From a virus, in IMG/VR virus record IMGVR_UViG_3300021405_000025, positions 1 to 42,841 of that record: 42,841 nt of DNA; one strand, written 5' to 3'. The position numbers and the translations under genes are program-made. Below, piece after piece: positions 5,274 to 36,821 of the stretch. The notes below the pieces were generated by a model. The model saw only the letters and a program-made list of their open reading frames with translations. It did no database searches and was not told the origin of the DNA. The first letter of the stretch is position 1, and each line of letters opens with the position of its first letter.

Positions 5274-5500
5274 CCAAGAAGCCCAACCAAGCCGAGCTGG
5301 ACGCCGTCAACGGAGCCGCGCTCGATCCGATCATTGATGCCCTCTTGGAGCATTTGCCCGCGCCCGGCGACTACTTCCCGGCCGAGGAGCGCAAGAAGTG
5401 GCTGCAAATGATTGAGCTGGCGTTCGACCTGATTTACGACGACCAGCCGAACGAAAGCACCGCCGAGCCGAACGATCCCGCCAAGCTGCATGGTCACTAA
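5270..5500 (+). CDS. Small hypothetical protein with apparent ATA start
   Basis: 76 residues reading (I)AKKPNQAELDAVNG and ending in a Glu/Pro-rich tail. The frame is open, has strong late-gene codon bias and overlaps terminase by 11 bases. GGAGG sits five bases before ATA GCC AAG; no ATG, GTG or TTG is available near the ribosome site. Either ATA is used as a rare start or an ATG has mutated or been misread. It could be a small terminase-associated protein; the function is unknown. Confidence 0.65.
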   Translation: MAKKPNQAELDAVNGAALDPIIDALLEHLPAPGDYFPAEERKKWLQMIELAFDLIYDDQPNESTAEPNDPAKLHGH

Positions 5501-7292
5501 GCCGAGCATCCGAACCGGCATTTACGACCTCCTCAGAGCCGTCGAGATTGACACCAAAGAGGAGGGGCGGACCCACGTCGACCCGTGGATGTCCCAGCGC
5601 ATGGTTATCGACGCCGTCGCCAAGGGGCTCAACGAGGGCGTGCATGAGTTCGTCATCCTCAAATGCCGCCAAGTCGCGATCACGACCATTTGCAGCGTGA
5701 TCGAATTGTTTTGGGCGCTCGCCAATCCGGGCGTCCAAGGCGCGATCATCGCCGATCGCACCGACAACCTTGAGCGACTGCGGCGCATCTTCGCCGCGCT
5801 CTTGGAGACGCTGCCGCCCGAATGGCGATCGTCCGAACACCGGCTGATCCAGAACAACCGCAACGGGATGGCGTTCGCCAACCGCAGCGTCATCGACCTG
5901 ATGGCGGCGGCCAGCAACCCGGACCTTGGCGCGTCGCGGGCGCTCAACATGTGCCACATGACCGAGTGCGGCCAATGGAAGTCAATCGCCGGCGTCGAAA
6001 GCCTTATCGCCTCGCTGGCCCGCGTCAACCCGAACCGGCTCTACATTTGGGAGAGCATCGCAAACGGCTTCAATTGGTTTTACAACCACTGTCAGCAAGC
6101 CAAGACCGACCGCCACATGCGGTTCATCTTCATCGGCTTTTGGGCCTGCCCAACCTACTCGATTGACAAGTCCGATCCCGACTACAAGGTTTATTGGGAC
6201 GGCAGGCTCGACGATGAGGAGTTAAAGCGGGCGCGTGACGTGCGCCAACGCTACAACGTGATCGTCAAGCCGGAACAGGTGGCATGGTGGCGGCGGGAAA
6301 GCGAGAAGCGGGCGGAGGAATATATGCTCCGTCACTATCCGTGGAACGAACGGGAGTGCTTTGTCGCTTCGGGCTCGTCTTTCTTCCCAGCCGGTCGAAC
6401 GCTCGAACTGGCGGAGACGCTGGCGGAGGGGCCTCCGTACAAGGGCTACAAGTACAACTTCGAGGATGCCTTCCTTGGATCGTCGATCGTGCAGACGACG
6501 AACAAGGACGAAGTGATGCTCAGGGTGTGGGAACCCCCCGAGGAAAAGGGCGTGTACGTCATCGGCGGCGATCCGTCGGGGGGCGGCGGGGGGGACGCTA
6601 ACGACCACGCGTTGGAAGTGTTCCGCTGCTACGCCGATCGGCTGGTGCAAGTCGCCGAGTTTCAATCGAACCGACCGCTGACCTATCAATTCGCGTGGGT
6701 CTTGTCGCATCTGTGCGGCGCGTACAAAAACCACATGGCGAACATCGAAGTGAGCGGCGTCGGGGCCGCCGTCCTGCCCGAAGTGCGCAACCTCCGCCAG
6801 CTCGCGCAACGCGGCATCATCCAAGCCGCGAACGACGCCGACAGCATCCTCAACATGGTCGGGTCTGTGCGCTGGTTCCTCTACAAGCGCGCCGACACCA
6901 TGGGCGGCGTCGGCAACGTCATCAACTGGAAAGCCAATCAGGACAACAAAGCGTGGATTTATAGCGAGCTGCGCGACAGCCTCATGCTGCGCAATATCGA
7001 GCTGCGCTCGATCCGGCTGGTCAAGGAATTGCAGGCGATCGTCGAAGATGAGGGCTGGTTAGGCGCGGGGCCTGACACCGGCGAGAACGACGATCTTGTC
7101 AGCGCCGCCACGCTGGCGCATCACACGTGGATTGAGTTTCAACGCCCGAACCTGATCGCCCGCAACATGACGTGGGATAGCATCAAAGGCGACCCGCCTC
7201 CGCAAAACGCCGGGACGGTGCTATCGTTCGCGTTCAGCGAGCATATCCGGGCGATCAACGCGCGGGCAGGACGGCGGAAGGAAGTCTTTTGA
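5490..7292 (+). CDS. terL: Terminase large subunit
   Basis: 600 residues; the ATPase-nuclease motor that packages DNA into the procapsid. Residues 58-66 (KCRQVAITT) correspond to the Walker A region of terminases of the K-RQ-G-ST type, here with Ala for the usual Gly. HMTE around residue 159 fits Walker B and the catalytic Glu. The RNase H-like nuclease shows GGDPSGG (Asp361), IEVSG (Glu420) and GENDDLVSA (Asp534/535). Length is normal. The start overlaps the preceding small gene, and the stop overlaps the next ATG. Confidence 0.95.
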   Translation: MVTKPSIRTGIYDLLRAVEIDTKEEGRTHVDPWMSQRMVIDAVAKGLNEGVHEFVILKCRQVAITTICSVIELFWALANPGVQGAIIADRTDNLERLRRIFAALLETLPPEWRSSEHRLIQNNRNGMAFANRSVIDLMAAASNPDLGASRALNMCHMTECGQWKSIAGVESLIASLARVNPNRLYIWESIANGFNWFYNHCQQAKTDRHMRFIFIGFWACPTYSIDKSDPDYKVYWDGRLDDEELKRARDVRQRYNVIVKPEQVAWWRRESEKRAEEYMLRHYPWNERECFVASGSSFFPAGRTLELAETLAEGPPYKGYKYNFEDAFLGSSIVQTTNKDEVMLRVWEPPEEKGVYVIGGDPSGGGGGDANDHALEVFRCYADRLVQVAEFQSNRPLTYQFAWVLSHLCGAYKNHMANIEVSGVGAAVLPEVRNLRQLAQRGIIQAANDADSILNMVGSVRWFLYKRADTMGGVGNVINWKANQDNKAWIYSELRDSLMLRNIELRSIRLVKELQAIVEDEGWLGAGPDTGENDDLVSAATLAHHTWIEFQRPNLIARNMTWDSIKGDPPPQNAGTVLSFAFSEHIRAINARAGRRKEVF

Positions 7293-8544: not shown

Positions 8545-10287
8545 ATGGCGCTCAAAATCCCGAAGAAATCCGACGACCTCAAGCGTTGGATCAAGGAGAT
8601 GATCGACCAGTGCATGGGATCATCCGAGGAGCGGGGCATGATCTACACCCGCGCCGCTCAATACTATTACATGGGATCGACGGACAATAGGGCCGCGCTC
8701 TACAACAAAACCGGACCCTTTATCGACAAGCTCGCCGGTTTCCTCATGCAGCCGACGGATGTCCGCTTCCAGCTCGTTTACGACAGCGGCGAGGATGACA
8801 GCGTCCTCGAACGATCGCAGCTCGTGGCGGAGAAATTGAGCTCCGACTTCCGCCAGACCGACGCCGACATCACCTTCGCCGAAGCCGTCGTTTGGTCGCT
8901 CGTCAACGGTTGCCAAATCCTCAAAGTCCTGCCCGACGGCGACAGCGGAACCTTCAAGACCGCGCCCGTGCATCCGCAGAATTTCGGCGTGCTATCCGAA
9001 ACGACGCTCAACCTCGACGAGCAAGAGGCGTTCTGCCACGTCAGCTATCCGACCAAGTCGCGCCTGCGCACGATGCTGCTCGAACATCCTCGCTACGAGC
9101 AAATCATGGCGCAACTCGACGACGAGCCCGGCCCGAACCGCGACGAGGAGGAGCCGACCTATTTTCACCAAATGGTTGTAGGTGGGCTGCAACCGTTGGG
9201 AGACGTTGGCGACGCCCCGTCCTCCGCAGCCGGGATCGTCAACGTCTTTCCCGTTCCAACGCCATGGCGCCCGCAACGCGCGTTCGCGCCGACCGTCAAG
9301 CACTGCGAAGTGTGGATCAAGGACCGCGACCGGGACGAGGATTGGACGACTGTCCAAGTCATCTATGGCGCCGACCCGATCATCATTGAGGGCGACGAGA
9401 CGCGGCGCAACCTGTCACGCGTCCCCGGCAAATCGAGCTTCGTCAAGGTGCAGGGCGTCCCGACGCCGGGCTATTTTTGGGGCCGCACGATCATCGCGTC
9501 GGTTCAGATGTTGCAGGACATGCTGAACAAGCGGATGCGCGATATCAAAGTCATGTGGGATAGGAACGTCAATGCCCCACAAGTCTTTTCCGGGTTTAGC
9601 TCCGTCACCGAGGAACAATACTTTAAGATTGTCAACGAGGGAGGTTTCATTAACGATCCAAACCCTAACGCAAAGGCGACGAAACTACTGGACCCGCCGC
9701 CAGAAAATTATCTCGAAGAACTCGAATTTATTTTCAAACTGTTTGATGAAGCAAGCGGCTTTAGTCCGATCATGTCAGGATCAGGAGAGCCGGGCGTCCG
9801 GGCTGGCGTCCACGCTCAAACTTTGGTTAGAACTTCGTCCCCCCACCTCATCAAACAAGCCGCGACGCTCGAAAGGCAGCTCGCCGATTGTGGGTGGCTG
9901 GCGCTCCGCATCATGCAAGCCATGGACGCCCTCATCTACACAACCGCCGACAGCAAAATCGAATTTCTCCTCTCCCAGCTTCCGGAAAATTTCCAAGTCC
10001 AAGTGGACAGCCACTCCGCGTCACCCGCCTTCGCGGAGGACAATCGTCAAGTCGCTATTGCGCTCGCTCGCGCGGGCGCGATCGACAGCGAAGATTTGAT
10101 CCACATGCTCCATCCGCCCGGCGCCGAGCTGCTGCTGGCGCGACTGAAACAGCGGCAGAAGGCGCAAGCGGCGCAGGCGAAAGAGGAAAAGACCGAGGAG
10201 CTGATGAAGGGCGTTCTCGGCATCGGCGGCGCTGGCGGCGGCTCGCGGCGGCCGAAGGGCGGCGGCGCTGGACAGACAAAGCATTAG
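8545..10287 (+). CDS. Portal protein (head-to-tail connector)
   Basis: 580 residues. Follows terminase and shows portal-like features: a helical N-terminal region, an all-beta/alpha central part, and the segment GRTIIASVQMLQDMLNKRM typical of the portal stem. The C-terminus is a charged helix ending in a Gly/Arg tail (GGAGGGSRRPKGGGAG). It would form the dodecameric DNA channel at the capsid vertex. Bases about 9590-9840 have a lower GC and relaxed codon use compared with the rest. Start 8545 is three bases after the preceding stop. Confidence 0.88.
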   Translation: MALKIPKKSDDLKRWIKEMIDQCMGSSEERGMIYTRAAQYYYMGSTDNRAALYNKTGPFIDKLAGFLMQPTDVRFQLVYDSGEDDSVLERSQLVAEKLSSDFRQTDADITFAEAVVWSLVNGCQILKVLPDGDSGTFKTAPVHPQNFGVLSETTLNLDEQEAFCHVSYPTKSRLRTMLLEHPRYEQIMAQLDDEPGPNRDEEEPTYFHQMVVGGLQPLGDVGDAPSSAAGIVNVFPVPTPWRPQRAFAPTVKHCEVWIKDRDRDEDWTTVQVIYGADPIIIEGDETRRNLSRVPGKSSFVKVQGVPTPGYFWGRTIIASVQMLQDMLNKRMRDIKVMWDRNVNAPQVFSGFSSVTEEQYFKIVNEGGFINDPNPNAKATKLLDPPPENYLEELEFIFKLFDEASGFSPIMSGSGEPGVRAGVHAQTLVRTSSPHLIKQAATLERQLADCGWLALRIMQAMDALIYTTADSKIEFLLSQLPENFQVQVDSHSASPAFAEDNRQVAIALARAGAIDSEDLIHMLHPPGAELLLARLKQRQKAQAAQAKEEKTEELMKGVLGIGGAGGGSRRPKGGGAGQTKH

Positions 10288-12078: not shown

Positions 12079-12164
12079 CGAACGACCAAGCGAGAGAGCA
12101 ACGGTCGGGGCGGGCGAGCCGAGTTGAGGCTAGATGTCCCGCCCCATTCCGTCCGGAGTTTTAG

Positions 12165-12707: not shown

Positions 12708-13724
12708 ATGCCTCTGCTTGGCGCAGGCATCATCCCGTCAGGACCGATCGGGCTGGAGCTGCAAGCGACCGTAAGGCGCGTTTTCGCGCAGATGGTCGTC
12801 ATTTTAATTTACAAACAAAACCCGCTCCTCGCGCTCCTCCTCCGCAATGCCATCCGCGCCAGCGGCGGCGTGTCGCCGTACACGCAGCCCGTCCAGACCG
12901 GACAGTATGTGCAATCGAGCTGGATAGGACCGGCCGGGCAATTCAATCTGCCCCAAGACGTGGCCGCGACCGTCAACGCCGAGTTCAACATGTGCGCGCT
13001 GGCGACGCCGGTCAGCTCGCTCGGCCTCGAACAGCTCGTGACGCAAGACGCGATCGCCGTCGCCTCGCGGCTCATGCTCAAACTCAACGATCTGAAAAAT
13101 TCGAGCTTGCAGGCGCTCACGACCGCGCTGTTCGGCCCGCCCGTCACCAACGTCCTGCAAATGTTCTCCCTACAGGACGCCTACGGCAACGCGGCCACAG
13201 CGCCCACCTATGGCGGGTTAAGCCGCGTCACTTATCCAGATTGGCAAGGGCTCGTCGTTCCCGGCGCTGGCGACATCCTGACCCGCGCCGCGTTCATCCC
13301 CAACATGCTCGCCGCCGTCAAAAACTCAGGCGGCGAAGCGTTGGATTTCATGGTCTGTTCGGTCGAGGATTGGACAACCCTCCTCACCGACTTCATGGCG
13401 GTCGAACGCTACAACAACGATCCGTCGAGCCGCTGGGGCAAGGACGATCCGGTCAATTCCGGCTTCCGAGGGCTCCTGCTAGGCGACACGCCGATCTTTT
13501 TCGATTTGAACTGCCCGCAGGGAACCGCCTATGGCTTCAACTCGAAATACATCACCCTTGTCGTTCACGAGGACGCCAACTTCGCCTGGACCGGCTGGTA
13601 TTCCACCATCCCGCAAGGGCAGATTGCCAGCGTGGGTCTCTCGATTACTGCGCTCAATCTGGTCTGCTCTAAGCCATCGACCGGGATGCAGATAACCGGC
13701 ATCACGGGAGGAGCGCCGTTCTAA
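12708..13724 (+). CDS. Major capsid protein
   Basis: 338 residues, the likely main shell protein. It follows the scaffold candidate and has HK97-fold-like features: an N-terminal helical arm, a long central region with GDILTRAAFIPNMLAAVKNS as spine helix, and a beta-rich C-terminal domain (GLLLGDTPIFFDLNCPQGTAYGF, stated loosely; residues about 255-335). Length is typical for small HK97-fold shells. No protease gene is visible. Confidence 0.82.
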   Translation: MPLLGAGIIPSGPIGLELQATVRRVFAQMVVILIYKQNPLLALLLRNAIRASGGVSPYTQPVQTGQYVQSSWIGPAGQFNLPQDVAATVNAEFNMCALATPVSSLGLEQLVTQDAIAVASRLMLKLNDLKNSSLQALTTALFGPPVTNVLQMFSLQDAYGNAATAPTYGGLSRVTYPDWQGLVVPGAGDILTRAAFIPNMLAAVKNSGGEALDFMVCSVEDWTTLLTDFMAVERYNNDPSSRWGKDDPVNSGFRGLLLGDTPIFFDLNCPQGTAYGFNSKYITLVVHEDANFAWTGWYSTIPQGQIASVGLSITALNLVCSKPSTGMQITGITGGAPF

Positions 13725-26930: not shown

Positions 26931-27739
26931 AACACTTCACTGTCACCGTCGGCGGCCAGACGCGCACGATCCCCGGTCCTGACGACGCCTCGCAAGAGGA
27001 CGCGCAAGCCGAAGCCGAACGGCAGATGCAGGCGAGCCAAAGCGCCGATTTGCAAAAAGACATGTCCGGGCCCGGCCATTTGATCGCCAATTTCGCGCAA
27101 GGCGCGGCCGAGCTGGTCGGCGGCCCGGCGCAGCTCTTGGGCGCGAAGCCGGGGCCGCTCTATCAGCAAGCCGAGAAGGCCCCGACCACGACCGGCGATA
27201 AGATCGCCCGCTTCGCTGGCGCGACGCTCCCCCTCGCGCCGCTTGGCGCAGCCTCGACGACCGCCAAGACAACGAACATCGTTCGCGGCGCAGGCGGCCG
27301 AATGACCAAGGTTGTGAGCAATCCCTTGGCTGCCGCGAAATATGTCCCTCTCGGCGTCGGGGCAGTCGAAGGCGCGTCCGCGCCCGCCTCGTCCAACACT
27401 CAGCGCGCCATCAATGCGGGCGTCGGCGCGGTCGGCGCGAAAATCCCCGGCATGTCGGAAGGAACCGCAGGCGCGCTAGACCACTTAATCGGGACCGGCG
27501 TCGGCGGCCTCTTGGGACATGGCGCGGGCGGCGCGCTGGGCGGGCTGGCGTCGCTATGGGGCGCGAAACTCGGCAACCAAATGAGCCACTACGCGCCGAT
27601 CGCCAGCTACGCTCGCCAGCTCCTGCAACGCTTCCCGCCCTCCGTCGTGGCGAGGATGCTGTCCGACGCCGGATACCCGGTCACAAAAATTCTCGGTCAG
27701 GAGTATGATTACATGAACCGGGACCGCGACGCCCAATGA
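26927..27739 (+). CDS. Glycine-zipper ejection/membrane-interacting protein
   Basis: 270 residues. A short N-terminal beta unit (MKHFTVTVGGQTRTIPGPDD) with a charged helix resembles the small domain fused to phage ejection proteins. The middle has Gly/Ala-rich hydrophobic helices (about 175-215, GTGVGGLLGHGAGGALGGLA), a glycine-zipper pattern suited to membrane insertion. Start overlaps the previous stop (ATGA). Confidence 0.7.
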   Translation: MKHFTVTVGGQTRTIPGPDDASQEDAQAEAERQMQASQSADLQKDMSGPGHLIANFAQGAAELVGGPAQLLGAKPGPLYQQAEKAPTTTGDKIARFAGATLPLAPLGAASTTAKTTNIVRGAGGRMTKVVSNPLAAAKYVPLGVGAVEGASAPASSNTQRAINAGVGAVGAKIPGMSEGTAGALDHLIGTGVGGLLGHGAGGALGGLASLWGAKLGNQMSHYAPIASYARQLLQRFPPSVVARMLSDAGYPVTKILGQEYDYMNRDRDAQ

Positions 27740-28071
27740 CGAAGTCAACCGATCCGCTTGACATCAACGGACGCCTCTATAAGCAAATCGGCAAGTTGCT
27801 CGACGATCTGGAAAGCGCCGATCGCGACGAACACATGACGATGCCGCAGCGCATCCAATCCTTGATCGCCGTCGGCCGCATCCTGACGATCTTCGCGACC
27901 TTGCGGAAGGGCGATTACGATTATGGCAACACTGGAAGCGCCGTCCGAAAATACGCCGCCGCGTTCGCGCGCCCCGATGCAGCTCGTGGGGGAAAAAACC
28001 CTCCCCGACCAACCCGGCAGCCTGTCCAGTTTGATAGCGGCGCAGACGACGACGCCGAGTTCGACGCCTAA
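27736..28071 (+). CDS. Hypothetical protein, overprinted at its 3' end
   Basis: 111 residues. Residues 1-65 form a plausible helical domain (NGRLYKQIGKLLDDLESADR, MTMPQRIQSLIAVGRILTIF); the rest is a polar tail encoded by bases that also encode the next gene in another frame. ATGA coupling to the ejection protein. Function unknown. Confidence 0.65.
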   Translation: MTKSTDPLDINGRLYKQIGKLLDDLESADRDEHMTMPQRIQSLIAVGRILTIFATLRKGDYDYGNTGSAVRKYAAAFARPDAARGGKNPPRPTRQPVQFDSGADDDAEFDA

Positions 28072-28327
28072 AGCGTCTGTTTCACGTGAAACAGAGTACG
28101 TTCACCGCAGCGCGTGGAAGGCGGGCGTCTTGGGCTCGCTCAACCTACTTGCGATTGTGCTTGCGGTGCGGCTGGTACTTTTGGTTGCGGTCATCGGCGC
28201 GCTCTGGCTCGCCAAACTCTCGCTCGACGTGCCGACGGGGCCGATGCAGATGCCCGCCCTTATCATGCTGGGCGTTTATTGCGGGGCGGTCGTGATCCCC
28301 ATGGTCTGGCTGTCCAGCCGGAAATAA
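27923..28327 (+). CDS. Membrane protein overlapping parS
   Basis: 134 residues. The polar N-terminal 60 residues include KASVSRETEY, whose codons form the parS palindrome. Two hydrophobic helices follow: about 75-97 (LLAIVLAVRLVLLVAVIGAL) and about 111-129 (ALIMLGVYCGAVVIPMVWL). It could be a holin or envelope protein at the end of the late operon. It overlaps the previous gene by 149 bases. ATG 27923 follows GATT; ribosome site weak. Confidence 0.65.
   Translation: MATLEAPSENTPPRSRAPMQLVGEKTLPDQPGSLSSLIAAQTTTPSSTPKASVSRETEYVHRSAWKAGVLGSLNLLAIVLAVRLVLLVAVIGALWLAKLSLDVPTGPMQMPALIMLGVYCGAVVIPMVWLSSRK
28076..28095. promoter_or_regulatory. parS centromere-like site (ParB binding)
   Basis: TCTGTTTCACGTGAAACAGA is a perfect 20-bp palindrome. 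Its inner 16 bases (28078-28093) equal the canonical bacterial parS TGTTTCACGTGAAACA, on which chromosomal ParB dimers load and spread. It lies inside the membrane-protein gene. No parA or parB is seen in this window, so any ParB would come from the host. Confidence 0.92.
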
Positions 28328-28364: not shown

Positions 28365-28847
28365 TCAGCCCTCTGACCCGCCGTTTTCAGGTCTGCGCCC
28401 CAAACTCTCCCTCGCCTTCTGCATCCCCTCGCGCTTCTGAGCCAAGACCTCCTCGCTAAATTCGGCCCGCTTCGCGATGCGTAGCTTGTCGCGGATGATT
28501 TCGGCTTCTTCCGGCGTCGGCAGGCGAGCGAGGAACAGCATCCCTTCCATGTCGCCGTCTTGGGTCACGCGACAGAATGGTTCGAGTGTCTTTCGCGCCC
28601 AAGTCCAAGCCTGCGAACTCGTCGGCTCCTCGAACTCGGCCGCGCCCCGGAAATAAATCTGGAACCCCTCCACCTTCTCCATCCCGCCCCACGGGATGCC
28701 CGGCACGGCATAGATATACCCATGTTTGCCGTTGATACGCCAATCGCCGCACTCGTCGCGGCGGAGCGCGGCGTCGCGGCAACCAAGCGCCTCGACCAGC
28801 TTCAACAGCGCCGGGCGCTGCACCGCAGGCGGATATTTGTCGGCCAT
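28365..28847 (-). CDS. Hypothetical protein, last gene of recombination operon
   Basis: 160 residues. Contains YAVPGIPWGGMEKVEGFQIY with alternating beta and helix patterns, C-terminal charged helix (EEVLAQKREGMQKARESLGR). No family recognised. ATG overlaps the stop of the upstream gene (TAATG). Convergent with the late operon; the 37-base gap holds no convincing terminator. Confidence 0.7.
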   Translation of the reverse strand: MADKYPPAVQRPALLKLVEALGCRDAALRRDECGDWRINGKHGYIYAVPGIPWGGMEKVEGFQIYFRGAAEFEEPTSSQAWTWARKTLEPFCRVTQDGDMEGMLFLARLPTPEEAEIIRDKLRIAKRAEFSEEVLAQKREGMQKARESLGRRPENGGSEG

Positions 28848-29284
28848 TAGAACTCCGCTAGGTCAGATTGCGGAACCCACCAAGCGGGCTCCCCTTCCTT
28901 CGGTTCGGGATCGTAGTAACAGTCCTGCTTGGCGTCGGCGCACAGAAATTCCCCACGGATCGAGTAGATCGGCGGCTTGGCGACAACGAGAACGAAAAAA
29001 CTGTTCGGGTGCTTTTCCAAGTCGCGCCGGCGGATCACAAGTTTCCCCGTCTCGTAAATCGTCGTCCGAACCTCGCGACCGTCCAGAACGTCGTCCTCCC
29101 GGCCGCGATGCCCTCGCCAATAGAGCCCGAGGTACTTGCTCACCGCCATTTCGCCGATCGCCGCGTCAATCTCGGTCGACCACGAGCTATGCGGCGCGGA
29201 CCTGTCGCGCTCGCCGTTCTTCATCGTGCCAACCCGGCGCATCAACCCCACGAGCCCGCCTTGCATGATTTCGGGCGGCGACAT
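28847..29284 (-). CDS. PD-(D/E)XK-like nuclease-fold protein candidate
   Basis: 145 residues. WSTEIDAAIGEMAVSKYLGL, DDVLDGREVRTT and GKLVIRRRDLEKHPNSFFVL match the restriction-endonuclease-like pattern of a family found in many phages (E in the first helix, D then E-x-R/K on strands). Lys is replaced by Arg at the catalytic position, so activity is uncertain. I chose ATG 29284; a GTG at 29317 overlapping the HTH gene is the alternative. Confidence 0.6.
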   Translation of the reverse strand: MSPPEIMQGGLVGLMRRVGTMKNGERDRSAPHSSWSTEIDAAIGEMAVSKYLGLYWRGHRGREDDVLDGREVRTTIYETGKLVIRRRDLEKHPNSFFVLVVAKPPIYSIRGEFLCADAKQDCYYDPEPKEGEPAWWVPQSDLAEF

Positions 29285-29298
29285 GAGGATGTCTTTTC

Positions 29299-29592
29299 TC
29301 ACTGATAGCGCCGCCACAAGCCGACGAACTCACGCGCTCCCGCCATCTTCGCCGCTACGCTCGCCGGCGTGTCAGGGATCGGCGCAAGCCGCAGCTCGCC
29401 GCCGGTCAGCTCGATCGTCTTGCCGAACATCGCCGCCACCTTGAGGAGATTGTCGACACGGGCCTCGTCGACCCGCCCCTCTAACCAGTTGTGGATGGTC
29501 TGCGCCGTCACGCCCGACCGGAACGCGACTTGATCGACCGACATTCCCGACCGGCTGATAAGCCGCTTCACCGCTTGAAACACGTCGCTCAT
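29299..29592 (-). CDS. XRE-type helix-turn-helix regulator
   Basis: 97 residues. MSVDQVAFRSGVTAQTIHNW is a clear lambda-repressor-like HTH (about residues 17-36), followed by LLKVAAMFGKTIELTGGELR. Probably a DNA-binding regulator of phage genes. AAGGGGGACGA precedes ATG 29592, which overlaps the upstream stop (ATGA). Confidence 0.85.
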   Translation of the reverse strand: MSDVFQAVKRLISRSGMSVDQVAFRSGVTAQTIHNWLEGRVDEARVDNLLKVAAMFGKTIELTGGELRLAPIPDTPASVAAKMAGAREFVGLWRRYQ

Positions 29593-29780
29593 TCGTCCCC
29601 CTTGGGCAGTTGACAGCCCAACAGCTCGCGCAAAGACGCCTCGTCGTGCGGCGCCAATTTCCCGTCCGCCTTCATTTCGAAAACGATGTCGCAGCTCGCG
29701 CAGCGCGTCGCGTCGGGCTCGCCGCCGTAGCTGAAAACATCCGCCTTGCAGTCGGCGCAGACAAATTCATGGACCGGCAT
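29589..29780 (-). CDS. Zinc-ribbon small protein
   Basis: 63 residues from ATG 29780 (MPVHEFVCADCKADV), or 65 from TTG 29786, which has better spacing to GGAGG. CADC and CASC form an FmdB-like zinc ribbon. The gene starts within the end of the exonuclease gene. Function unknown. Confidence 0.75.
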   Translation of the reverse strand: MPVHEFVCADCKADVFSYGGEPDATRCASCDIVFEMKADGKLAPHDEASLRELLGCQLPKGDE

Positions 29781-30498
29781 CCCCAAGATCGCCCTCCTCC
29801 GGGTTGATGAGCCTCAGTTGCACGTACTCGTCCGACTGATAGGCGACATCGGCGGGCGTCTCGACCCGGCGGACTTCCGCAAACGCCCCGAGCGCCCGTG
29901 CGCGCTCCGTCTGCACGTCGAGCGTGTCGCAGAATTGGTCGAGCGCCGCCGCAAGGATCGACTGATAGCGATGGTCGCGGAGAATGACCTTGTGAAACGG
30001 CGGCGTGCGCGGGTTGTAGGTATAGAAATGAACCGCGTCGAACTCGTCGCCGACCAGCAAATGCCCTTGCGTCTGCGCGATGTAGGCGTCGTCCGGGCCT
30101 TCAAGCAGATATTGAAGCTGGGTCCACGGGGCCGGGCTCTTGATTTCAAGGCTTTCCTTGTGACCCTTGAAAATCCGATCCGGGCTCGCCCCGAGCCGCC
30201 CGTCATTGGTCGTGACGAAGCCGCCCGGCTCAAGGGTGACTTCGTTGACGAACTCGAATTGCTGGACGGCGTAGGGCTCTTGCTCGCGACCTTGAGCAAC
30301 CCACTTCACGAAGCCGATTTCGTCATCCATCGTCTCGTTGAGGAGCCGTTCCGCCACTAGCCGATAGAGATACTTGACCGCCTGTTTCGACGGCTCCCCC
30401 TTCGGCGTCACGATCTTGTGGAAGTTGCTCGATGTCGGGATGCCGAGGCGTCGACGATACCACTCCGCCGACCCTTGCTCCACCCGGTACAGCTTCAT
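29767..30498 (-). CDS. YqaJ-type exonuclease (phage recombination)
   Basis: 243 residues from ATG 30498 (GGGAGG 8 bases upstream). PD-(D/E)XK nuclease: an N-terminal SAEWYRRRLGIPTSSNFHKI motif, Glu74, then RLGASPDRIF (Asp107) and SLEIKSPAP (Glu118, Lys120), the YqaJ viral recombinase signature. It resects double-stranded ends to make single strands for the ERF annealing protein encoded at 31754-32527. Confidence 0.9.
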   Translation of the reverse strand: MKLYRVEQGSAEWYRRRLGIPTSSNFHKIVTPKGEPSKQAVKYLYRLVAERLLNETMDDEIGFVKWVAQGREQEPYAVQQFEFVNEVTLEPGGFVTTNDGRLGASPDRIFKGHKESLEIKSPAPWTQLQYLLEGPDDAYIAQTQGHLLVGDEFDAVHFYTYNPRTPPFHKVILRDHRYQSILAAALDQFCDTLDVQTERARALGAFAEVRRVETPADVAYQSDEYVQLRLINPEEGDLGDAGP

Positions 30499-30718
30499 TC
30501 GCTTGTCCTCCCAAGTCGCGTGCAAGCTTCGCCTCGATCGCCGTCAGCCTCGCCTCGATCACGGCGAACCGCTCGTCGATCAGGTCCGCGACGCCCGCCA
30601 TGGACAGCGCCGCCGCCCCCAACTCCTCCATCGCTTGGCGTTCGCCACTCATGAGCGTTTCGAGCGCCGTTCGGTCGTGAAACGGTTTGCCGATGATGAA
30701 TTTGTGGTCTGTCGTCAT
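30323..30718 (-). CDS. Coiled-coil protein overlapping the exonuclease gene
   Basis: 131 residues from MTTDHKFIIGKPFHDRTALE. Residues 20-65 form a helix with heptads (LIDERFAVIEARLTAIEAKL). The C-terminal 58 residues are encoded by bases that also encode the exonuclease N-terminus. ATGA coupling to the upstream gene. No known family; the tail may be only an unselected read-through. Confidence 0.6.
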   Translation of the reverse strand: MTTDHKFIIGKPFHDRTALETLMSGERQAMEELGAAALSMAGVADLIDERFAVIEARLTAIEAKLARDLGGQANEAVPGGARVGGVVSSTPRHPDIEQLPQDRDAEGGAVETGGQVSLSASGGTAPQRDDG

Positions 30719-31200
30719 ACCGGGTTCTCCCCTTCCATCCGCTCGCCAAAAGCGCGGTTCAATTCGGCTTCGTCTTTGTGCGCGCACGGAAAGCAGACCC
30801 ATTTGCGTTTACCGTCCGGTTTCTTGTGACCGTAGGGGCGCAGCTCCTCAAGCTTGCCGCAGTCCTCGCAGATTTCCGGCTCGCGCGGCTCAAGCATGAT
30901 GACCCGCTTCGGCATGATCGGCAGATCGCGCAAGGCGCGGGTGACGGCGAGGACGCGATCGAAGCCGCGATCGTTGCTCAACTCCGCCATCAGCTCCGAC
31001 GACAGCTCGACGTTCTTCTCGCCGTCCCACTCCATCGCGTAGCCGCAGTCGCCGCAGATCATCACCGAGCCCTTGTCCGGTCGCGGCGCCGGCCCGGTAA
31101 TGCCGGTCAGCGGCGCGTTGCAGTGCAGGCAATGCCCCGTGTTGAAACGATTGGTTTCCCAATCGCCGCCGACCGCCGCGCGTCGTTTCTGCTCGCCCAT
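30715..31200 (-). CDS. Double zinc-ribbon protein
   Basis: 161 residues with two four-cysteine sites: CLHC and CGDC (about 24-52), CEDC and CFPC (about 111-137), separated by a helical segment. Likely a nucleic-acid or protein-interaction factor in the recombination operon. ATG 31200 follows directly after the upstream stop. Confidence 0.75.
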   Translation of the reverse strand: MGEQKRRAAVGGDWETNRFNTGHCLHCNAPLTGITGPAPRPDKGSVMICGDCGYAMEWDGEKNVELSSELMAELSNDRGFDRVLAVTRALRDLPIMPKRVIMLEPREPEICEDCGKLEELRPYGHKKPDGKRKWVCFPCAHKDEAELNRAFGERMEGENPV

Positions 31201-31425
31201 TTAATGCTCCTCTAGCCACGCGGCGAAGCCGGGCGACTGATAGTCGAGTTGTTCGCGATGCTTGCCGAGCAATTCCTCGCGCGTCAGCCCGAGCGCGTTG
31301 AACAGCAAGAGCGCCCGCGCTGCGCGTTCCGGCGTGATCGGGTTGCCTTGCCGCAACACACGCTGTCCGCAGCACAGACAGGTGTTCTTGTCGCCGGTCT
31401 CAAGCCATTCAGCCTTGGGGATCAT
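31201..31425 (-). CDS. Small hypothetical protein with Cys motif
   Basis: 74 residues, MIPKAEWLETGDKNTCLCCG then a helical body (ITPERAARALLLFNALGLTR). The CLCC pair alone would not complete a zinc site. ATGA coupling with the upstream gene. Unknown function. Confidence 0.7.
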   Translation of the reverse strand: MIPKAEWLETGDKNTCLCCGQRVLRQGNPITPERAARALLLFNALGLTREELLGKHREQLDYQSPGFAAWLEEH

Positions 31426-31757
31426 TTCAGTTGCGCCCTCAACGCGGTTGTCGCTGGATCAGGATCAGGCAGCGGGATATCGAACGACGGTCCCGGCGGG
31501 GGTTGTGTGCGGCCCACCGGGACCGCCGCACGCTTCGCGATGCCTCCCAACAGCAACCGGGGGGTGGTTGATGTTCCGCATCGCTGGGCGTTCGGGTATT
31601 TCCAGATCGAATAGCAGTGCGCTTGCGCGTGGCCGCCCAACATCGTCCACAAGACGAAGGCGACCATCGCCACGTGAATGAGCCAGAACAGCCAGCCCGG
31701 CTTTTTGTCCGAGTAGCCGAAGGCGTAGCGCGCCAGCTCGCTTCGCGGCTCGCTCAC
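31422..31757 (-). CDS. Single-pass membrane protein
   Basis: 111 residues. One transmembrane helix at about 22-40 (WLFWLIHVAMVAFVLWTMLG), then HCYSIWKYPNAQRCG, a motif I associate with small rhizobial-type phage membrane proteins, and a Pro-rich tail. Unknown role; it sits in the early operon rather than with lysis genes. ATGA overlap on both sides. Confidence 0.7.
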   Translation of the reverse strand: MSEPRSELARYAFGYSDKKPGWLFWLIHVAMVAFVLWTMLGGHAQAHCYSIWKYPNAQRCGTSTTPRLLLGGIAKRAAVPVGRTQPPPGPSFDIPLPDPDPATTALRAQLK

Positions 31758-32527
31758 TTCGACGCCCTCCGCTGTTTCTTCTCGCGGAGCGCCATGATGA
31801 GGCGCGGATAATCGCGCTGCCGGATGTCCTGCAAACTCTCGGCGCCAGAAACCATCGTCTTGAGGAACGCCGCCTCGTCGGTCGCCGTCGCCTTGATTAA
31901 ATCGGTCAGCTCTTTGAGCTGCGTCGCGTCGATCAGCGCCTCAAGCGCGCCCTTCGCGTCGTCGTCCTTGCCCTTGCGCACGACGTTGCACAGATCGTCG
32001 GTCACATACCGCTTGGCGTAGCGCCGCGACGAGCCGCGCGCCTGCAATTCGTTCCGCCCCGGTCCTTTGTCAGGCGGCAGCGTGTAGGTTGACGATCGCT
32101 CCCAGCCCCAGCCCGACAACGTGCCTGTCACCGTGACGCCGTTGGCGTTGTCGGTCGACGCAAACGAGATAGCGAAACCGTGCTTGGCGAGAAGCGGGCG
32201 CAAGATCACGTCCATCCCTTCGATGGTCGTGAAGGCGTAGCGCCCCACTTCGCGACCATCCTTGACCAGCGCCACCGTGCCGTCGCGCTCGACTTGCGGC
32301 AGCTCCGCCGAGAACGCCGCGAAATGCTCCATGAAGGCTTCGCGCGCTTGGTCGCCCAAGACTTCGCGCCGCATCTTCATCACCACTTCCATCTTGTCGG
32401 CCGGAATGTTCGGATCGGAGAGCATCTGCATGAGGACGCCCGCGAACGTCTCCGCTGGGGCGGGCTTCGGCACCCACGTCAGCGGGCCGGGCTTGAAATC
32501 CTCGCCTTCGACGCCAGTGTCGTTCAT
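31754..32527 (-). CDS. erf: ERF-family single-strand annealing protein
   Basis: 257 residues from ATG 32527. VERDGTVALVKDGREVGRYA then FTTIEGMDVILRPLLAKHGF is the ERF superfamily core; GSSRRYAKRYVTDDL is the conserved second part. With the YqaJ-type exonuclease it forms a Red-like recombination pair used in phage replication and circularisation. The longer upstream frame is rejected because the preceding gene's stop overlaps this ATG. Confidence 0.9.
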   Translation of the reverse strand: MNDTGVEGEDFKPGPLTWVPKPAPAETFAGVLMQMLSDPNIPADKMEVVMKMRREVLGDQAREAFMEHFAAFSAELPQVERDGTVALVKDGREVGRYAFTTIEGMDVILRPLLAKHGFAISFASTDNANGVTVTGTLSGWGWERSSTYTLPPDKGPGRNELQARGSSRRYAKRYVTDDLCNVVRKGKDDDAKGALEALIDATQLKELTDLIKATATDEAAFLKTMVSGAESLQDIRQRDYPRLIMALREKKQRRASK

Positions 32528-32796
32528 TGCTTCACCGCGCTCCTGCCCTCGTGAACCGCGACCAAACTCCAAACTGTCTCGCACCATTGCGCCATCAGCT
32601 TCGTGCGCAGATCGAGTTCTCTTTCCGGGTCGTTCGGGATTTGATGGTTGACGAGAAAGGTCGCCATCAGCTCCGCCAGCGTGGAGCCGATGACGCCCGG
32701 CTGTTGCCCGGTGAAGAACAGCGACACCATGGCGACGATTTGTTGCGCCGTTTGCGCCTGCCTGTCGGCTTCCGCCTTGCTCACAGCCTCTTTCAT
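32524..32796 (-). CDS. Small helical hypothetical protein
   Basis: 90 residues, predicted all-helical (KAEADRQAQTAQQIVAMVSL), with FTGQQPGVIGSTLAELMATF. Conserved-looking, no function known. Coupled to the ERF gene by ATGA. Confidence 0.7.
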   Translation of the reverse strand: MKEAVSKAEADRQAQTAQQIVAMVSLFFTGQQPGVIGSTLAELMATFLVNHQIPNDPERELDLRTKLMAQWCETVWSLVAVHEGRSAVKQ

Positions 32797-32797
32797 G

Positions 32798-32998
32798 TCA
32801 CTCGATGCCGGTCAGAAGCGCCATGATCTTGGCGACCGTCGCCGTGTCGGTTTTCGTGTGGATCAGCCGCCCGTTGAGGTAGATCGCAATTGCGACCACG
32901 TCGGCGTTCGTCGGCTCGCCGAACAGCTCCCGCCCGATTGCTTCCGTGCTGGATTGACGCGCCCGGTGCGCGTCCTCCTCGCGAACGTGTTCATTCAT
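32798..32998 (-). CDS. Small hypothetical protein, first gene of recombination operon
   Basis: 66 residues, MNEHVREEDAHRARQSSTEA to ALLTGIE. GGGAGAAAACGGA precedes ATG 32998, which is preferred over ATG 33013. First gene after the divergent promoter region at 33014-33073. Function unknown. Confidence 0.7.
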   Translation of the reverse strand: MNEHVREEDAHRARQSSTEAIGRELFGEPTNADVVAIAIYLNGRLIHTKTDTATVAKIMALLTGIE

Positions 32999-33015
32999 TC
33001 CGTTTTCTCCCATCT

Positions 33016-33072
33016 GTGGATGCGCTATGACATACCCTTGACGTGACGGGGTGTCAACTGCTAGGGATTACA
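33016..33072. promoter_or_regulatory. Divergent promoters with operator (site 9)
   Basis: Minus strand: TTGACA (33057-33052), 17-base spacer and TATGTC form a good promoter for the recombination operon. Plus strand: TTGACG (33038-33043), 18-base spacer, TAGGGA for the HTH gene. TGTCA-N11-TTACA (33052-33072) covers the minus -35 and the plus -10, so one bound protein could block both. ATG 33074 follows immediately. Confidence 0.75.
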
Positions 33073-33073
33073 C

Positions 33074-33562
33074 ATGGACTTTCAACAGGTTCTCGCATCG
33101 GCCGTGCAAAAAGCGACGCTGCCCGCGCTCGCGAGCGACCTTTTGGCCGTCGCTCACAAGCTGCGCTACCCCATGGCGGCGATCCTCGCCAAGGTTCCGG
33201 GGGATACGCTGGCCGAGCGCGCCCGCCAAATCGGCGTGTCACGCCAGACGATGTACGTGTGGGCGCAAGAGCGGTTCCGCCCGTCAAGCGAGCAAGCCGC
33301 CACCATCGCCCACCTGACCGGCGTCCCGGTCGAACAAATCATGGCGTATCAGGAGGGCAAAGATGACGGGACCAACGGCGCTCGAAAACCGGCTCGAAAG
33401 ACGCGTGCGCGATTGGCGAAAGCAAGCCGCAGCCTACCGGCTGGCGCAGCTCGATTGCGAGCCAAGCGCCGAGGAGTGGCACTTGAACAAGGAAAACGCG
33501 GACACGCTGGAAAGGTGCGCAAGCGAACTCGCCAGCGACCTGTCAGCGGGGAGAGTGTTTAG
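33074..33562 (+). CDS. Helix-turn-helix regulator (repressor/Cro-like candidate)
   Basis: 162 residues in the full frame. About 15-95 hold an HTH (TLAERARQIGVSRQTMYVWA) plus a dimer-type helix (EQAATIAHLTGVPVEQIMAY). The last 65 residues are Arg/Lys/Ala-rich and share bases with the next gene, so the functional protein may end near residue 97. ATG directly follows site 9. Divergent position from the recombination operon is typical for a phage master regulator. Confidence 0.75.
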   Translation: MDFQQVLASAVQKATLPALASDLLAVAHKLRYPMAAILAKVPGDTLAERARQIGVSRQTMYVWAQERFRPSSEQAATIAHLTGVPVEQIMAYQEGKDDGTNGARKPARKTRARLAKASRSLPAGAARLRAKRRGVALEQGKRGHAGKVRKRTRQRPVSGESV

Positions 33563-33656
33563 GCGATCGCAATATGCCCCGGTCGAGCTGCCGCCCGCCG
33601 CTGGCGGCGCGGGACACGGCGAACCGCCAAGAGGCGCGAAAGGTGGGCCAGTCTGA
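33363..33656 (+). CDS. Small helical protein overlapping the regulator
   Basis: 97 residues. MTGPTALENRLERRVRDWRK to about residue 63 is a plausible helical domain; a Gly/Pro tail follows. AGGAGGGCAAAG gives a strong ribosome site for ATG 33363. It overlaps the regulator frame by 200 bases. Function unknown. Confidence 0.65.
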   Translation: MTGPTALENRLERRVRDWRKQAAAYRLAQLDCEPSAEEWHLNKENADTLERCASELASDLSAGRVFRRSQYAPVELPPAAGGAGHGEPPRGAKGGPV

Positions 33657-33844
33657 TGCTCTACGGCGGCGCATATCGGCGGCGGTTTAAGCCGTGGCAC
33701 GACCCGAAGCTCGGCTATCGCAACGAGCCGGAATATCAGCGGCAGCGGCAGGAAGCCAAAACCCCTGACGCCAAGGTCGCCGTCGAGGAACGCTGGGCGC
33801 GGCGCTGGAAAGAGAAGCTAAAGTTTGGTCCCGTTTCGCCCTGA
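33656..33844 (+). CDS. Small basic hypothetical protein
   Basis: 62 residues, MLYGGAYRRRFKPWHDPKLG to KLKFGPVSP; basic and Trp/Tyr-containing. ATG overlaps the previous stop (TGATG). No family recognised. Confidence 0.65.
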   Translation: MLYGGAYRRRFKPWHDPKLGYRNEPEYQRQRQEAKTPDAKVAVEERWARRWKEKLKFGPVSP

Positions 33845-34220
33845 TAAATGCCCCTGCGGCTTGCCGTGGGATTTATGCCCTTGGTCCGAGACGGTGTGGT
33901 GGCCGCTCGGGAACCAGACGGGGGAGGCTTCGGTAGCAAATGCTGTCCGGCGCGGGCCTCCCCCGTCGAAATTCGTCTGCCCGTTCTGCCGCGCCGTGAG
34001 CTACAACCCTAACGACATCCGCGAACGGTATTGCGGACGCTGCCACGTGTTCGTCGACGACGCCCTACGCGAGGGCTGCGAACGCGCTCTTGCAGCTCTT
34101 GAGCGCCGTGAGGCGACTATCCAAGCCATTGTAGCCGCCGTTCACGATCTTGCAGACCGCCTTGGCGTCGTCCCGGTCAGCGACAGCGTTGAGGTTGTTC
34201 GCCTTCCAAAACCAGCCTGA
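33825..34220 (+). CDS. Cys-rich zinc protein
   Basis: 131 residues from TTG 33825. CPCGLPWDLCPWSETVWWPL, then VCPFCRAVSYNPNDIRERYC and GRCHVFVDD: several cysteine pairs with a zinc-ribbon ending RYCGRCH, as seen in many small alphaproteobacterial phage proteins. The C-terminal helix is encoded opposite the end of the endolysin gene (156-base convergent overlap). Start uncertain. Confidence 0.65.
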   Translation: MVPFRPDKCPCGLPWDLCPWSETVWWPLGNQTGEASVANAVRRGPPPSKFVCPFCRAVSYNPNDIRERYCGRCHVFVDDALREGCERALAALERREATIQAIVAAVHDLADRLGVVPVSDSVEVVRLPKPA

Positions 34221-34619
34221 CACCGTCGCCGCGAGCGGAAACCGCTCGACCGTCTCAGGCTTGGCTAGGATGTCCGGGTCGCCCAAGACCTTCGCGCATG
34301 TCGTGTAATTGTACCGGCCGGTGAGCTGGATCACGCCGCGACCCTTGAACCGCACCCCGTCGCCCTTCTGCGTGTTGCCCAAATCCTTCCGGCCCTCATA
34401 CGCCTTGCCGCTGGCGTACTCTTGCGTCACCTGAAAATGGTCGCTCTCATGCGCGCATTGCGCAATGAAATGCTGCTGCCGCAGATCGGTGTTGATGTCG
34501 AAGCGGTGGATCAAATCCGGCATGTTGTCCGCCAGCCCCAGCAAAATCCACTCCTTGCCGCGCGGCTCGACCTTCCGCAGAACATCCATCCATTGTTCGA
34601 GAGTTTTCGGTTCGGCCAT
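34065..34619 (-). CDS. GH19 chitinase-like endolysin
   Basis: 184 residues. Glycoside hydrolase family 19 lysozyme fold: QCAHESDHFQVTQEYASGK with catalytic Glu, YEGRKDLGNTQKGDG, RFKGRGVIQLTGRYNY, and C-terminal GWFWKANNLNAVADRDD. It should cleave peptidoglycan for lysis. No signal peptide, so a holin is needed. ATG 34619 has GGAGG; a longer leaderless form from ATG 34712, directly after site 10, would add 31 residues. Confidence 0.9.
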   Translation of the reverse strand: MAEPKTLEQWMDVLRKVEPRGKEWILLGLADNMPDLIHRFDINTDLRQQHFIAQCAHESDHFQVTQEYASGKAYEGRKDLGNTQKGDGVRFKGRGVIQLTGRYNYTTCAKVLGDPDILAKPETVERFPLAATVSGWFWKANNLNAVADRDDAKAVCKIVNGGYNGLDSRLTALKSCKSAFAALA

Positions 34620-34713
34620 GGCGTCCTCCAACGCCCCTGTCCATCCTATCTCGGACACGCTTAAATAAGAATGACGCCCCGGAGACGCCAGGAAAATGGC
34701 GCGATTTGGCATG

Positions 34714-34734
34714 TGTCATGTATTAGAGTTGACA
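34714..34734 (-). promoter_or_regulatory. Operator-like palindrome, site 10, abutting ATG 34712
   Basis: Perfect TGTCA-N11-TGACA. Read on the minus strand it is almost the same as site 8: GGTTAGACTGTCAACT, centre, TGACACATG. Likely promoter-operator for the endolysin. A GTCTAACC extension lies on its right. Confidence 0.75.
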
Positions 34735-34736
34735 GT

Positions 34737-34877
34737 CTAACCTACCCGTTCCCCACATCGCTTGTCTGTTATATGCCGTTTTGCCGCCTTGTCGACTTGC
34801 GCGAAATCGCGTGCTTTTCCGAAGGCCCATGTATTCGCGCAGTATTCGCAAGTAGAGGCGAGTATAGCGTCTATCAT
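34737..34877 (-). CDS. 46-residue C2HC zinc-finger-like protein
   Basis: MIDAILASTCEYCANTWAFG, ending KRHITDKRCGERVG. CEYC and the later His-x5-Cys could form one zinc site. ATG 34877 follows AGAAGGCATCCG, the ribosome site style of the left region; a longer frame from a TTG at 35039 has no such site and an implausible Arg-rich start. Confidence 0.6.
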   Translation of the reverse strand: MIDAILASTCEYCANTWAFGKARDFAQVDKAAKRHITDKRCGERVG

Positions 34878-35120
34878 CGGATGCCTTCTATACTTCACTC
34901 TACTTCGCGTTGCTTGCGCTCTACGCTCCACCTTCTGGTGGGCCGCATGAGTAGCACGAGGTTTCTGTTTTTCCGCGGTGGCATGGTCCTTGAACGTCTC
35001 TCGGACGCGGCGTGCGCACCGCGTGCGGAGCAAGTCCAAGGTTTCCCAAAGCTGGAAAAAAGCGAACCGGCTTCCCCCGATTTTTTTTGGGGAAATTGCG
35101 CCGCAACTTTTGGAAATAAA
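34878..35120. other. Intergenic region between HNH-like and zinc-finger genes
   Basis: No convincing gene. It holds a small hairpin CCACC/GGTGG (about 34930), a TTCCCC/GGGGAA inverted repeat with a T-rich loop (35072-35094) followed on the minus strand by a further T6, which may be a weak terminator for the HNH-like gene, and TAGAG direct repeats near 34890-34925. Confidence 0.45.
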
Positions 35121-35456
35121 TCAGAATTTGGGGGCGGGGTGTGTTCCCTGCCGCCATTCGGGCCGAGCTTCCAGCCATTTGGGGAAGGGGAGGTCGGTCG
35201 TTTTCAACTGCAATCGCTCGTATTTCCAACGGTTATAGGCCGCCGTTTTCGACATCCGGTGCGTGGGGTTGCCGTCTGGTTTTGGGGTGATGCAGCCGCA
35301 CGATTTGGTGTGTCCGTTCATGAGGGCGCTGACGCGGACGGTATGTCGGTTGCCGCAGGGGCATTGGCAGAGCCAGCGGTATTCGCCGCCGGCGAGCTGA
35401 CCGTTGCGTCGGATCGCGGTCAGGCGGCCGAACACTTGCCCTGTCAGTTCCCTCAT
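35121..35456 (-). CDS. HNH-endonuclease-associated DNA-binding protein
   Basis: 111 residues. GQVFGRLTAIRRNG, WLCQCPCGNRHTVRVSALMN and GHTKSCGCI are the zinc/AP2-type N-terminal region seen in many phage HNH and homing-type endonucleases; the HNH catalytic core itself is absent or strongly shortened (TAAYNRWKYERLQLK). Probably a DNA-binding remnant or a stand-alone protein. Its ribosome site lies inside the GGTTCG-type repeats. Confidence 0.75.
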   Translation of the reverse strand: MRELTGQVFGRLTAIRRNGQLAGGEYRWLCQCPCGNRHTVRVSALMNGHTKSCGCITPKPDGNPTHRMSKTAAYNRWKYERLQLKTTDLPFPKWLEARPEWRQGTHPAPKF

Positions 35457-35459
35457 CCC

Positions 35460-35571
35460 CGAACCCTCCGAACCCTCCCGAACCCTCTGCTATATACGCC
35501 TACGCACACACACGCGCGCGAGAAATATAGCCCTTATAGGGGCAACGGTTCGGAACGGTTCGTACGGTTCG
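35460..35571. repeat. Phased inverted hexamer array (origin candidate)
   Basis: Three CGAACC hexamers at 35460, 35469 and 35479, and three GGTTCG hexamers (their complement) at 35547, 35557 and 35566, spaced 9-10 bp, i.e. one helical turn. Between them is an AT-rich and CA/CG alternating stretch. It sits next to the primase/helicase gene. Could be a replication origin with iterons or a large mRNA hairpin covering the next gene's ribosome site. Confidence 0.75.
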
Positions 35572-35573
35572 GG

Positions 35574-36821
35574 TTATTCTGGTTTTTTCCAGACAATTCG
35601 ACCGCTAGCCGCACGGGCTTTCTCATAACCGTCCTTTTTCAGAATTGCGGCGATCCGCTTCTGCGCCAGCATGTCGAGTTTGGTGAGGTCGGCGGAGCTG
35701 TTGACGGACTGCAATCCTTGCCAGATGAAAGCGATAGTTACGGACGGGAGTGAAAGCGCCACTTCAAGCACGCGATCGGTCCAGTTGTCGTAGGCTTGGC
35801 GCTTCTCTTGGTGGGGGGCGATGACGCGGCGCTCGAAGTTTCGGTCGGGCCACCACGGCTCGCCAGCCTCCAAAGCCTCTCGCGCTTCGGCGAAAAGCTG
35901 GTCGCGAAACTCGGCCAGCCAAGCCAGATCGACGAACACGACCCTGACCGGCCAGAACCGGCGCGCTCCCGTCTCGTCCTTGATCCAATCGTCGGTGTTG
36001 GTCGTGCCGATGAACAGGCATTGGCGTGGCTCGCGCCGCTCTTTGCGCCCGTATTTGGGCGTGTAGATTTCCCAGCGCCGGGTGATGAAGGCTTTCAGCG
36101 TTTCGACATCGCCGATCTTGTTGAACGCCGCCAGCTCACTGATTTCTATGAGCCATTTGCCGCGCATGTGCATCGACGTTCGGACTTGATCGCCGTTGAG
36201 CGAGGGGATGTGATCGGAGAAATACTCGGTCCCCGCGAGCGCCCGGCAGAACTGGCTTTTCAGCTCGCCTTGCGGACCTTCCAAGACCATCATGTAGTCC
36301 GCCTGACAACCGGGGTCCATGACACGGGCGACCATGGCGATGGCGAACCGGCGGCCGATTTCGTTGTGATAGGCGTCGTTCGGGACGCCCAGCGCATAGG
36401 TCAGCCAGTTGTCGAGGACCGGCTGACGGACGCCGATTTCGCGGGTGCGGAGCCAGAGGCGAAGCGGGTGGACGGGGTTTTCGCGGGCGAACTGTTCGAG
36501 CGCCCAATGGATCGCCTCGCGGCCGACCTTGGGCATGACCATCTGCATCCACTCTTGCAGGCGGGAGATGTCCTCCTCGTCGGCGAAGCGCGGACAGACG
36601 GCGCCGGGCTCGGCGTCGCCGCAGATCGGGGGCGGCGCCCGAACGATGACGGCTTGTTGCATCTCGTCGAAGGCGAACGCGGTCCCAAAGCCCGGTTCGT
36701 TGCGCAGCGCAATCATGACGTTGCGGAAGTCGGCGATCGGCATGGCGTTCGCGCCTCTGCCTTTGGTTCGCAGGAGCGTCGTCCATGACGGCTTCGGGAC
36801 GAGTGTTGGACCCTTACCCAT
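35574..36821 (-). CDS. VapE-type primase/helicase
   Basis: 415 residues. Virulence-associated E family: EGPQGELKSQFCRALAG (P-loop 182-189), RGKWLIEISELAAFNKIGDV (Walker B), RQCLFIGTTNTDDWIKD and GARRFWPV (sensor and Arg finger). It likely opens phage DNA for replication. The P-loop has Leu where the family normally has Gly before Lys. GGAGG six bases before ATG 36821 supports the start. N-terminal primase portion is short. Confidence 0.88.
   Translation of the reverse strand: MGKGPTLVPKPSWTTLLRTKGRGANAMPIADFRNVMIALRNEPGFGTAFAFDEMQQAVIVRAPPPICGDAEPGAVCPRFADEEDISRLQEWMQMVMPKVGREAIHWALEQFARENPVHPLRLWLRTREIGVRQPVLDNWLTYALGVPNDAYHNEIGRRFAIAMVARVMDPGCQADYMMVLEGPQGELKSQFCRALAGTEYFSDHIPSLNGDQVRTSMHMRGKWLIEISELAAFNKIGDVETLKAFITRRWEIYTPKYGRKERREPRQCLFIGTTNTDDWIKDETGARRFWPVRVVFVDLAWLAEFRDQLFAEAREALEAGEPWWPDRNFERRVIAPHQEKRQAYDNWTDRVLEVALSLPSVTIAFIWQGLQSVNSSADLTKLDMLAQKRIAAILKKDGYEKARAASGRIVWKKPE

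Follow-up and report, generated by a model that had tools for sequence, protein, structure and literature searches.

Phage-plasmids such as P1 and N15 and the extrachromosomal mycobacteriophages encode their own ParA and ParB together with dedicated sites. The phage described here shares with them a centromere-type site on phage DNA, but is devoid of ParA and ParB of its own. The Bacillus phage phi29 reportedly uses the host ParB (Spo0J) for entrapment of its genome in the spore. In that case, too, ParB of the host would handle the genome of a phage, there a virulent one, and the phi29 relative B103 bears an exact parS. In contrast to phi29, our phage belongs to another lineage, is GC-rich and has no known link to sporulation. 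A further related case is the island SGI1, for which Muranyi et al. (2024, PMC10954446) describe two parS mimics bound by the ParB of the IncC plasmid, with the effect that SGI1 is stabilised and the helper is destabilised. As is presumed for the phage, a mobile element carries parS-type sites for the ParB of another replicon. SGI1 differs in being an integrative island with two mimics directed to a plasmid ParB, whereas the phage possesses the universal chromosomal parS in one copy and at a location varying among relatives. The use of another replicon's ParB by a mobile element is therefore known. What appears to be new is a chromosomal parS in a ParB-less phage family, its occurrence as a floating single copy, and its recurrence in unrelated phages; in the open-licence literature searched we found neither these features nor any direct description of phages hijacking host ParB through parS.

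The window, i.e. the whole stretch of DNA analysed, is a virus record of a tailed phage and comprises 42,841 bases with 64% GC. The following features are relevant to the site.

5490 to 28327, + strand: packaging and virion block ending at ORF134, with TerL at 5490-7292 and the major head protein at 12708-13724
27736 to 28071, + strand: ORF111, which runs in a different frame over the start of ORF134 and stops a few bases before parS; 96% identical in the close relative G021
27923 to 28327, + strand: ORF134, membrane protein of 134 aa (alignment of ten homologs)
28076 to 28095, no strand: 20-bp perfect palindrome around parS, its outer bases differing among relatives
28078 to 28093, no strand: parS core, presumed loading site of host ParB; exact match, unique in the window, strongly enriched in the family
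28365 to 36821, - strand: replication and regulation block (profile matches), mostly leftward, converging on the parS end
29299 to 29592, in the mostly leftward block: Cro/CI-type HTH
29767 to 30525, in the mostly leftward block: YqaJ recombinase
31754 to 32587, in the mostly leftward block: ERF
33074 to 33562, rightward within the 28365 to 36821 block: CI-like gene
34065 to 34712, within the 28365 to 36821 block: GH19 endolysin
35574 to 36821, in the mostly leftward block: VapE-like helicase/primase

An earlier note on this DNA had reported an exact 16-bp parS inside a 20-bp perfect palindrome, and the sequence bears this out. Positions 28076-28095 read TCTGTTTCACGTGAAACAGA, and the inner 16 bp at 28078-28093 are the canonical chromosomal parS TGTTTCACGTGAAACA. 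This is the 16-bp palindrome which, with its accepted variants, makes up the parS consensus as given in PMC7022226. The site has the same sequence as the chromosomal consensus, and some variants in relatives of the phage equal Caulobacter variants in that source; it differs from chromosomal parS in lying on a phage genome without ParA and ParB, away from any oriC. The exact match is the only one in the whole window, with no further match at one to three mismatches, and shuffled sequences led us to expect 0.05 matches at three mismatches. By length, the 20-mer ranks second among the perfect palindromes of the window. The longest is a 26-mer at 72-97, AAAAAGGGGCCATATGGCCCCTTTTT, which resembles a two-way terminator.

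The parS bases encode S-V-S-R-E-T in the variable linker of ORF134, ahead of its hydrophobic part. No Pfam family matched ORF134, the PHROG match to a membrane protein was weak (E=0.0085), and relatives were found in IMG/VR (four records) and none in the annotated phage collection. The overlap between ORF111 and ORF134 spans about 150 bases read in two frames, and relatives of 42-96% identity preserve both of these frames.

Terminase and capsid searches of IMG/VR resulted in well over 100 relatives, many of them derived from few related metagenome sets. Across the 1.87 Mb of 67 family records, parS was found 6 times as an exact match, 13 times with up to one mismatch, and 16 times with up to two, and every site-bearing record holds exactly one copy. 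Not a single exact match to any of 839 other 16-bp palindromes of equal half-site composition occurred in these records; the best of them was found in 2 records within one mismatch and in 4 within two. Both the shuffles and this control agree with the earlier claim that the match is beyond chance. A chance origin was ruled out by the 839-palindrome control in combination with reversed-site controls, run both on IMG/VR and on the phage collection. From the 22 near-full-length family genomes, 6 carry parS and 16 do not, and among the latter is G021, in which no match was detected within three mismatches. Hence, parS is dispensable rather than essential. The one-mismatch candidate sites in G007, G040 and G042 (TGTTTCATGTGAAACA) and in G073 (TGTTTCACGTGCAACA) account for 4 of the 7 records of this type; their changes may bear on ParB affinity and were counted against the best reading.

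In the family the site occupies at least six locations. The ORF134 linker holds 8 of the 16 sites. In G007, G008 and G045 the site is located in ORF219, the gene after the capsid gene. G071 has it at the C-terminal end of its ORF106 homolog and reads ASTLVSRETRRS there, vs ASDLVTEKVRRS in the window. G059 and G081 carry it around ORF651, a large gene of low complexity. In G042 it lies between the gene for ERF and the CI-like one, and G073 has a one-mismatch copy in a nuclease-like frame that is flanked by the homologs of ORF548 and ORF106. For G007, G071 and G081 we read an ORF134 homolog and saw that it lacks the site, while the records of some others do not include the ORF134 region. Even between G045 and G048, which are sisters with branch support 100/96, the gene that carries parS differs. 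On the tree of the major capsid protein, the distribution of parS needs about 12 gains or losses, which was also counted against the best reading. As far as these comparisons reach, parS has moved in the course of evolution, occurs no more than once per record and can be dispensed with, and such movement between genes is stronger evidence than conservation in place, the pattern that the earlier note had proposed to look for. The G073 site could be a weaker case, as it has one mismatch and is read as FHVQQ in the nuclease-like gene. A nuclease-like gene adjoins ORF106 homologs both in L102 (9775-10233) and in G073 (near 12105).

The earlier note had also stated that parA, parB and an integrase are missing, and profile searches of the window agree with this. 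ParB_N (PF02195) was not detected in whole records of the window phage and 23 relatives, a ParA-type ATPase (AAA_31, PF13614) neither in the window nor in the 16 site-bearing records, and a tyrosine integrase (PF00589) neither in the window nor in 22 relatives. All three profiles scored in control genomes. A remote ParB encoded by the phage itself was considered and ruled out by the negative ParB_N search. A self-contained ParABS system, with parA and parB on the same replicon, was found neither in the window nor in the site-bearing relatives; what was found is parS without an own ParB, a trait shared with ParB-hijacking mobile elements like SGI1.

A scan of GTDB species genomes gave zero confirmed matches to the capsid protein. 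The sole match to the terminase profile in GTDB was a 30%-identical relative in a Chloroflexi MAG, which is too distant for naming a host. There was no sign of a prophage, lysogenic or plasmid state, given the absent integrase and the lack of capsid-gene matches in the GTDB genomes scanned. As to traits of temperate phage-plasmids, the window contains a VapE-like replication gene and CI-like/HTH genes and has no integrase, and no lysogen was found in the scanned GTDB genomes.

Outside the family, at least 120 stretches of IMG/VR contain an exact parS, compared to 1 for the reversed-sequence control. Among the IMG/VR matches listed, 4 of 37 parS-bearing contigs of at least 25 kb had a ParB_N match, 3 of them over the cut-off. 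Probes of 36 bases containing parS with four types of flanks matched at least 62, at least 213, at least 72, and at least 156 records of annotated phages, and the reversed control none. The four probe sets overlap, and the counts are lower bounds because only sites with a favourable neighbouring base were reported. ParB_N was not found over the cut-off in any of 16 checked parS-bearing phage records, and Pureglobe5 had a sub-threshold match. These records were Arthrobacter phages Joann, Bennie, Racecar and Pureglobe5, Glutamicibacter phage Voltaire, Rhodococcus phage Finch, Ruegeria phages V10 and RpAliso, Enterococcus phage vB_EfaP_2/Chl-5, Lactobacillus phages Iacchus and Bromius, Bacillus phage B103, Gordonia phage Woes, Listeria phage A511, Microbacterium phage Kozie, and the inovirus bajarodino virus 6. 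The records of Listeria phages LM 4-11-1 and LM 4-14-1 are fragment-like, may contain host DNA, and were left out.

Several of these phages contain more than one site. Bajarodino virus 6 (PQ006135.1) has six exact parS within 5.9 kb (635, 662, 1414, 2857, 4096 and 5628), Voltaire (OV696617.1) two exact copies at 8742-8776 with starts 19 bp apart, and Ruegeria phage vB_RpoS-V10 three exact copies at 841, 142597 and 144884, near both ends of its 147-kb record. Bacillus phage B103 carries an exact parS in gene 15 and an additional site with one mismatch. The same 16 bases were also found in microviruses of other gene content. No Enterobacteriaceae phage was present in an even sample of 60 records from the matches of one probe; enterobacteria are not known to have a chromosomal ParABS system. 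The sites of bajarodino virus 6 are mostly at gene ends, ParB_N is absent, and related records likewise have sites in several places. Voltaire is a phi29-like phage of 18 kb whose tandem parS lies between the amidase and major tail genes, and at least one parS of vB_RpoS-V10 falls into a long stretch without annotated genes.

Taken together, we consider it rather likely that selection on the DNA has preserved a true parS here, and that the chromosomal ParB of the host loads there and affects the entire phage genome in cis by way of segregation, positioning or condensation. Since the phage has no reader proteins of its own and its relatives maintain one copy at varying places, it probably borrows the segregation machinery of its host. 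We infer binding by host ParB, spreading, and benefit as follows. Host ParB would close as a CTP clamp at the single phage parS and would slide over many kilobases of the approximately 42-kb genome. The ParB-coated genome may then be handled by host ParA and/or SMC and in this way be positioned and condensed, and a phage genome persisting without lysis could be segregated with the host chromosomes. The benefit would be either segregation of a non-lytic carrier state or positioning and condensation in lytic infection. One parS per replicon should be enough and its location of little weight, in agreement with the pattern observed in the family. The recruitment of host ParB had already been suggested in the earlier note. 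Conservation at the DNA level, relocation, the ParB-less genomes, and occurrence in unrelated phages lend good comparative support to this suggestion, but the site is not family-wide and is absent in G021.

That the palindrome arose by chance, or as a side effect of a conserved VSRET peptide in ORF134, seems next to impossible to us. Most sites can indeed be read in a VSRET-like frame. However, encoding VSRET as GTT-TCA-CGT-GAA-ACA has p = 2.5e-5 under the codon usage of the 64% GC window, and across sites the peptide varies (VSRET, VSHET, VSCET, VPRET, VQRET) while most of the palindrome stays. Moreover, the parS bases recur in unrelated genes and, in G073, in another frame, and ORF134 homologs without the site also lack the peptide; chance is opposed by the 839 control palindromes. 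The variants CGTTTCACGTGAAACA and TGTTCCACGTGAAACA fit the Caulobacter parS consensus t/cGTTt/cCACGTGAAAca as listed in Table 1 of PMC7022226. These findings are in line with the earlier view that the palindrome is conserved beyond the need of the amino acids. Synonymous changes breaking the palindrome in relatives, which had been named as a refutation, were not seen: relatives that retain the peptide have the palindrome intact or slightly changed, mostly to known parS variants. On the joint evidence of enrichment, relocation, codon choice and the tree, the site is kept by selection on DNA and not as a protein motif. It is very improbable that the site serves as operator for a DNA-binding protein of the phage itself, e.g. 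the HTH protein encoded at 29299-29592, and shares its sequence with parS by coincidence. Two small HTH proteins are encoded in the window, but the same 16 bases are present in an inovirus, in microviruses and in tailed phages that are unrelated and differ in gene content, and a single copy that floats and mostly lies inside genes does not resemble an operator.

The main rival assumes that host ParB is bound to the detriment of the host. Replicating phage DNA would offer many parS copies as decoys, titrate ParB (and SMC) from the host origin, and disturb segregation or ParA-DnaA control to the advantage of the phage. The copy number of the phage would multiply its one site, six exact sites are crowded into the small inovirus genome and two are in tandem in Voltaire, and according to PMC10954446 replication-driven copies of the SGI1 parS expel the helper plasmid. 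Yet if titration were selected for, extra copies should arise often, while the family has exactly one site per record, and the small elements with multiple sites are equally compatible with partition. We therefore judge titration to be unlikely. Still less probable is a local transcriptional or structural role, in which ParB spreading from parS silences or insulates neighbouring genes, for instance at the block junction at about 28.3 kb. The window site is situated near the convergence of the rightward and leftward blocks, and silencing of plasmid genes at long range by the ParB-family protein KorB is described in PMC11790492. In relatives, however, the site is found in at least six different places, including mid-virion genes and the interval between the ERF and CI-like genes, which is unlike a fixed regulatory target. 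As there is a single site whose place is immaterial, an effect of host ParB on the whole replicon would fit better than local gene control.

With respect to phages in general, we slightly favour the view that capture of the host parS is a general strategy of ParB-less phages. Within this family it would have arisen repeatedly and at differing positions, and independently of that in many unrelated phages of ParABS hosts, namely virulent tailed phages, phi29-like phages, microviruses, and inoviruses. Host ParB, possibly together with ParA or SMC, would thereby be made to treat the genome of the virus as a part of the chromosome. If host ParB loads at these sites, chromosome segregation is a shared resource that viruses tap with 16 bases and no gene, and the absence of par genes in a phage does not equal the absence of partition. 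Such loading could explain the non-lytic persistence or the placement of virulent phage genomes. It would also provide a simple test bench for ParB/SMC loading on a small replicon, consisting of one palindrome, host parB mutants, and well-studied phages, e.g. B103 of Bacillus or Joann of Arthrobacter.

Two further observations concern the genes in which parS is embedded elsewhere. In many Microbacterium phages of INPHARED (e.g. H284, H286 and H289) an exact parS is located in an annotated helix-turn-helix DNA-binding gene. In two other viral contigs, L108 (IMGVR_UViG_3300050821_000206, 1236-1251) and L038 (280-295), parS lies in small genes and is read as VSRET.
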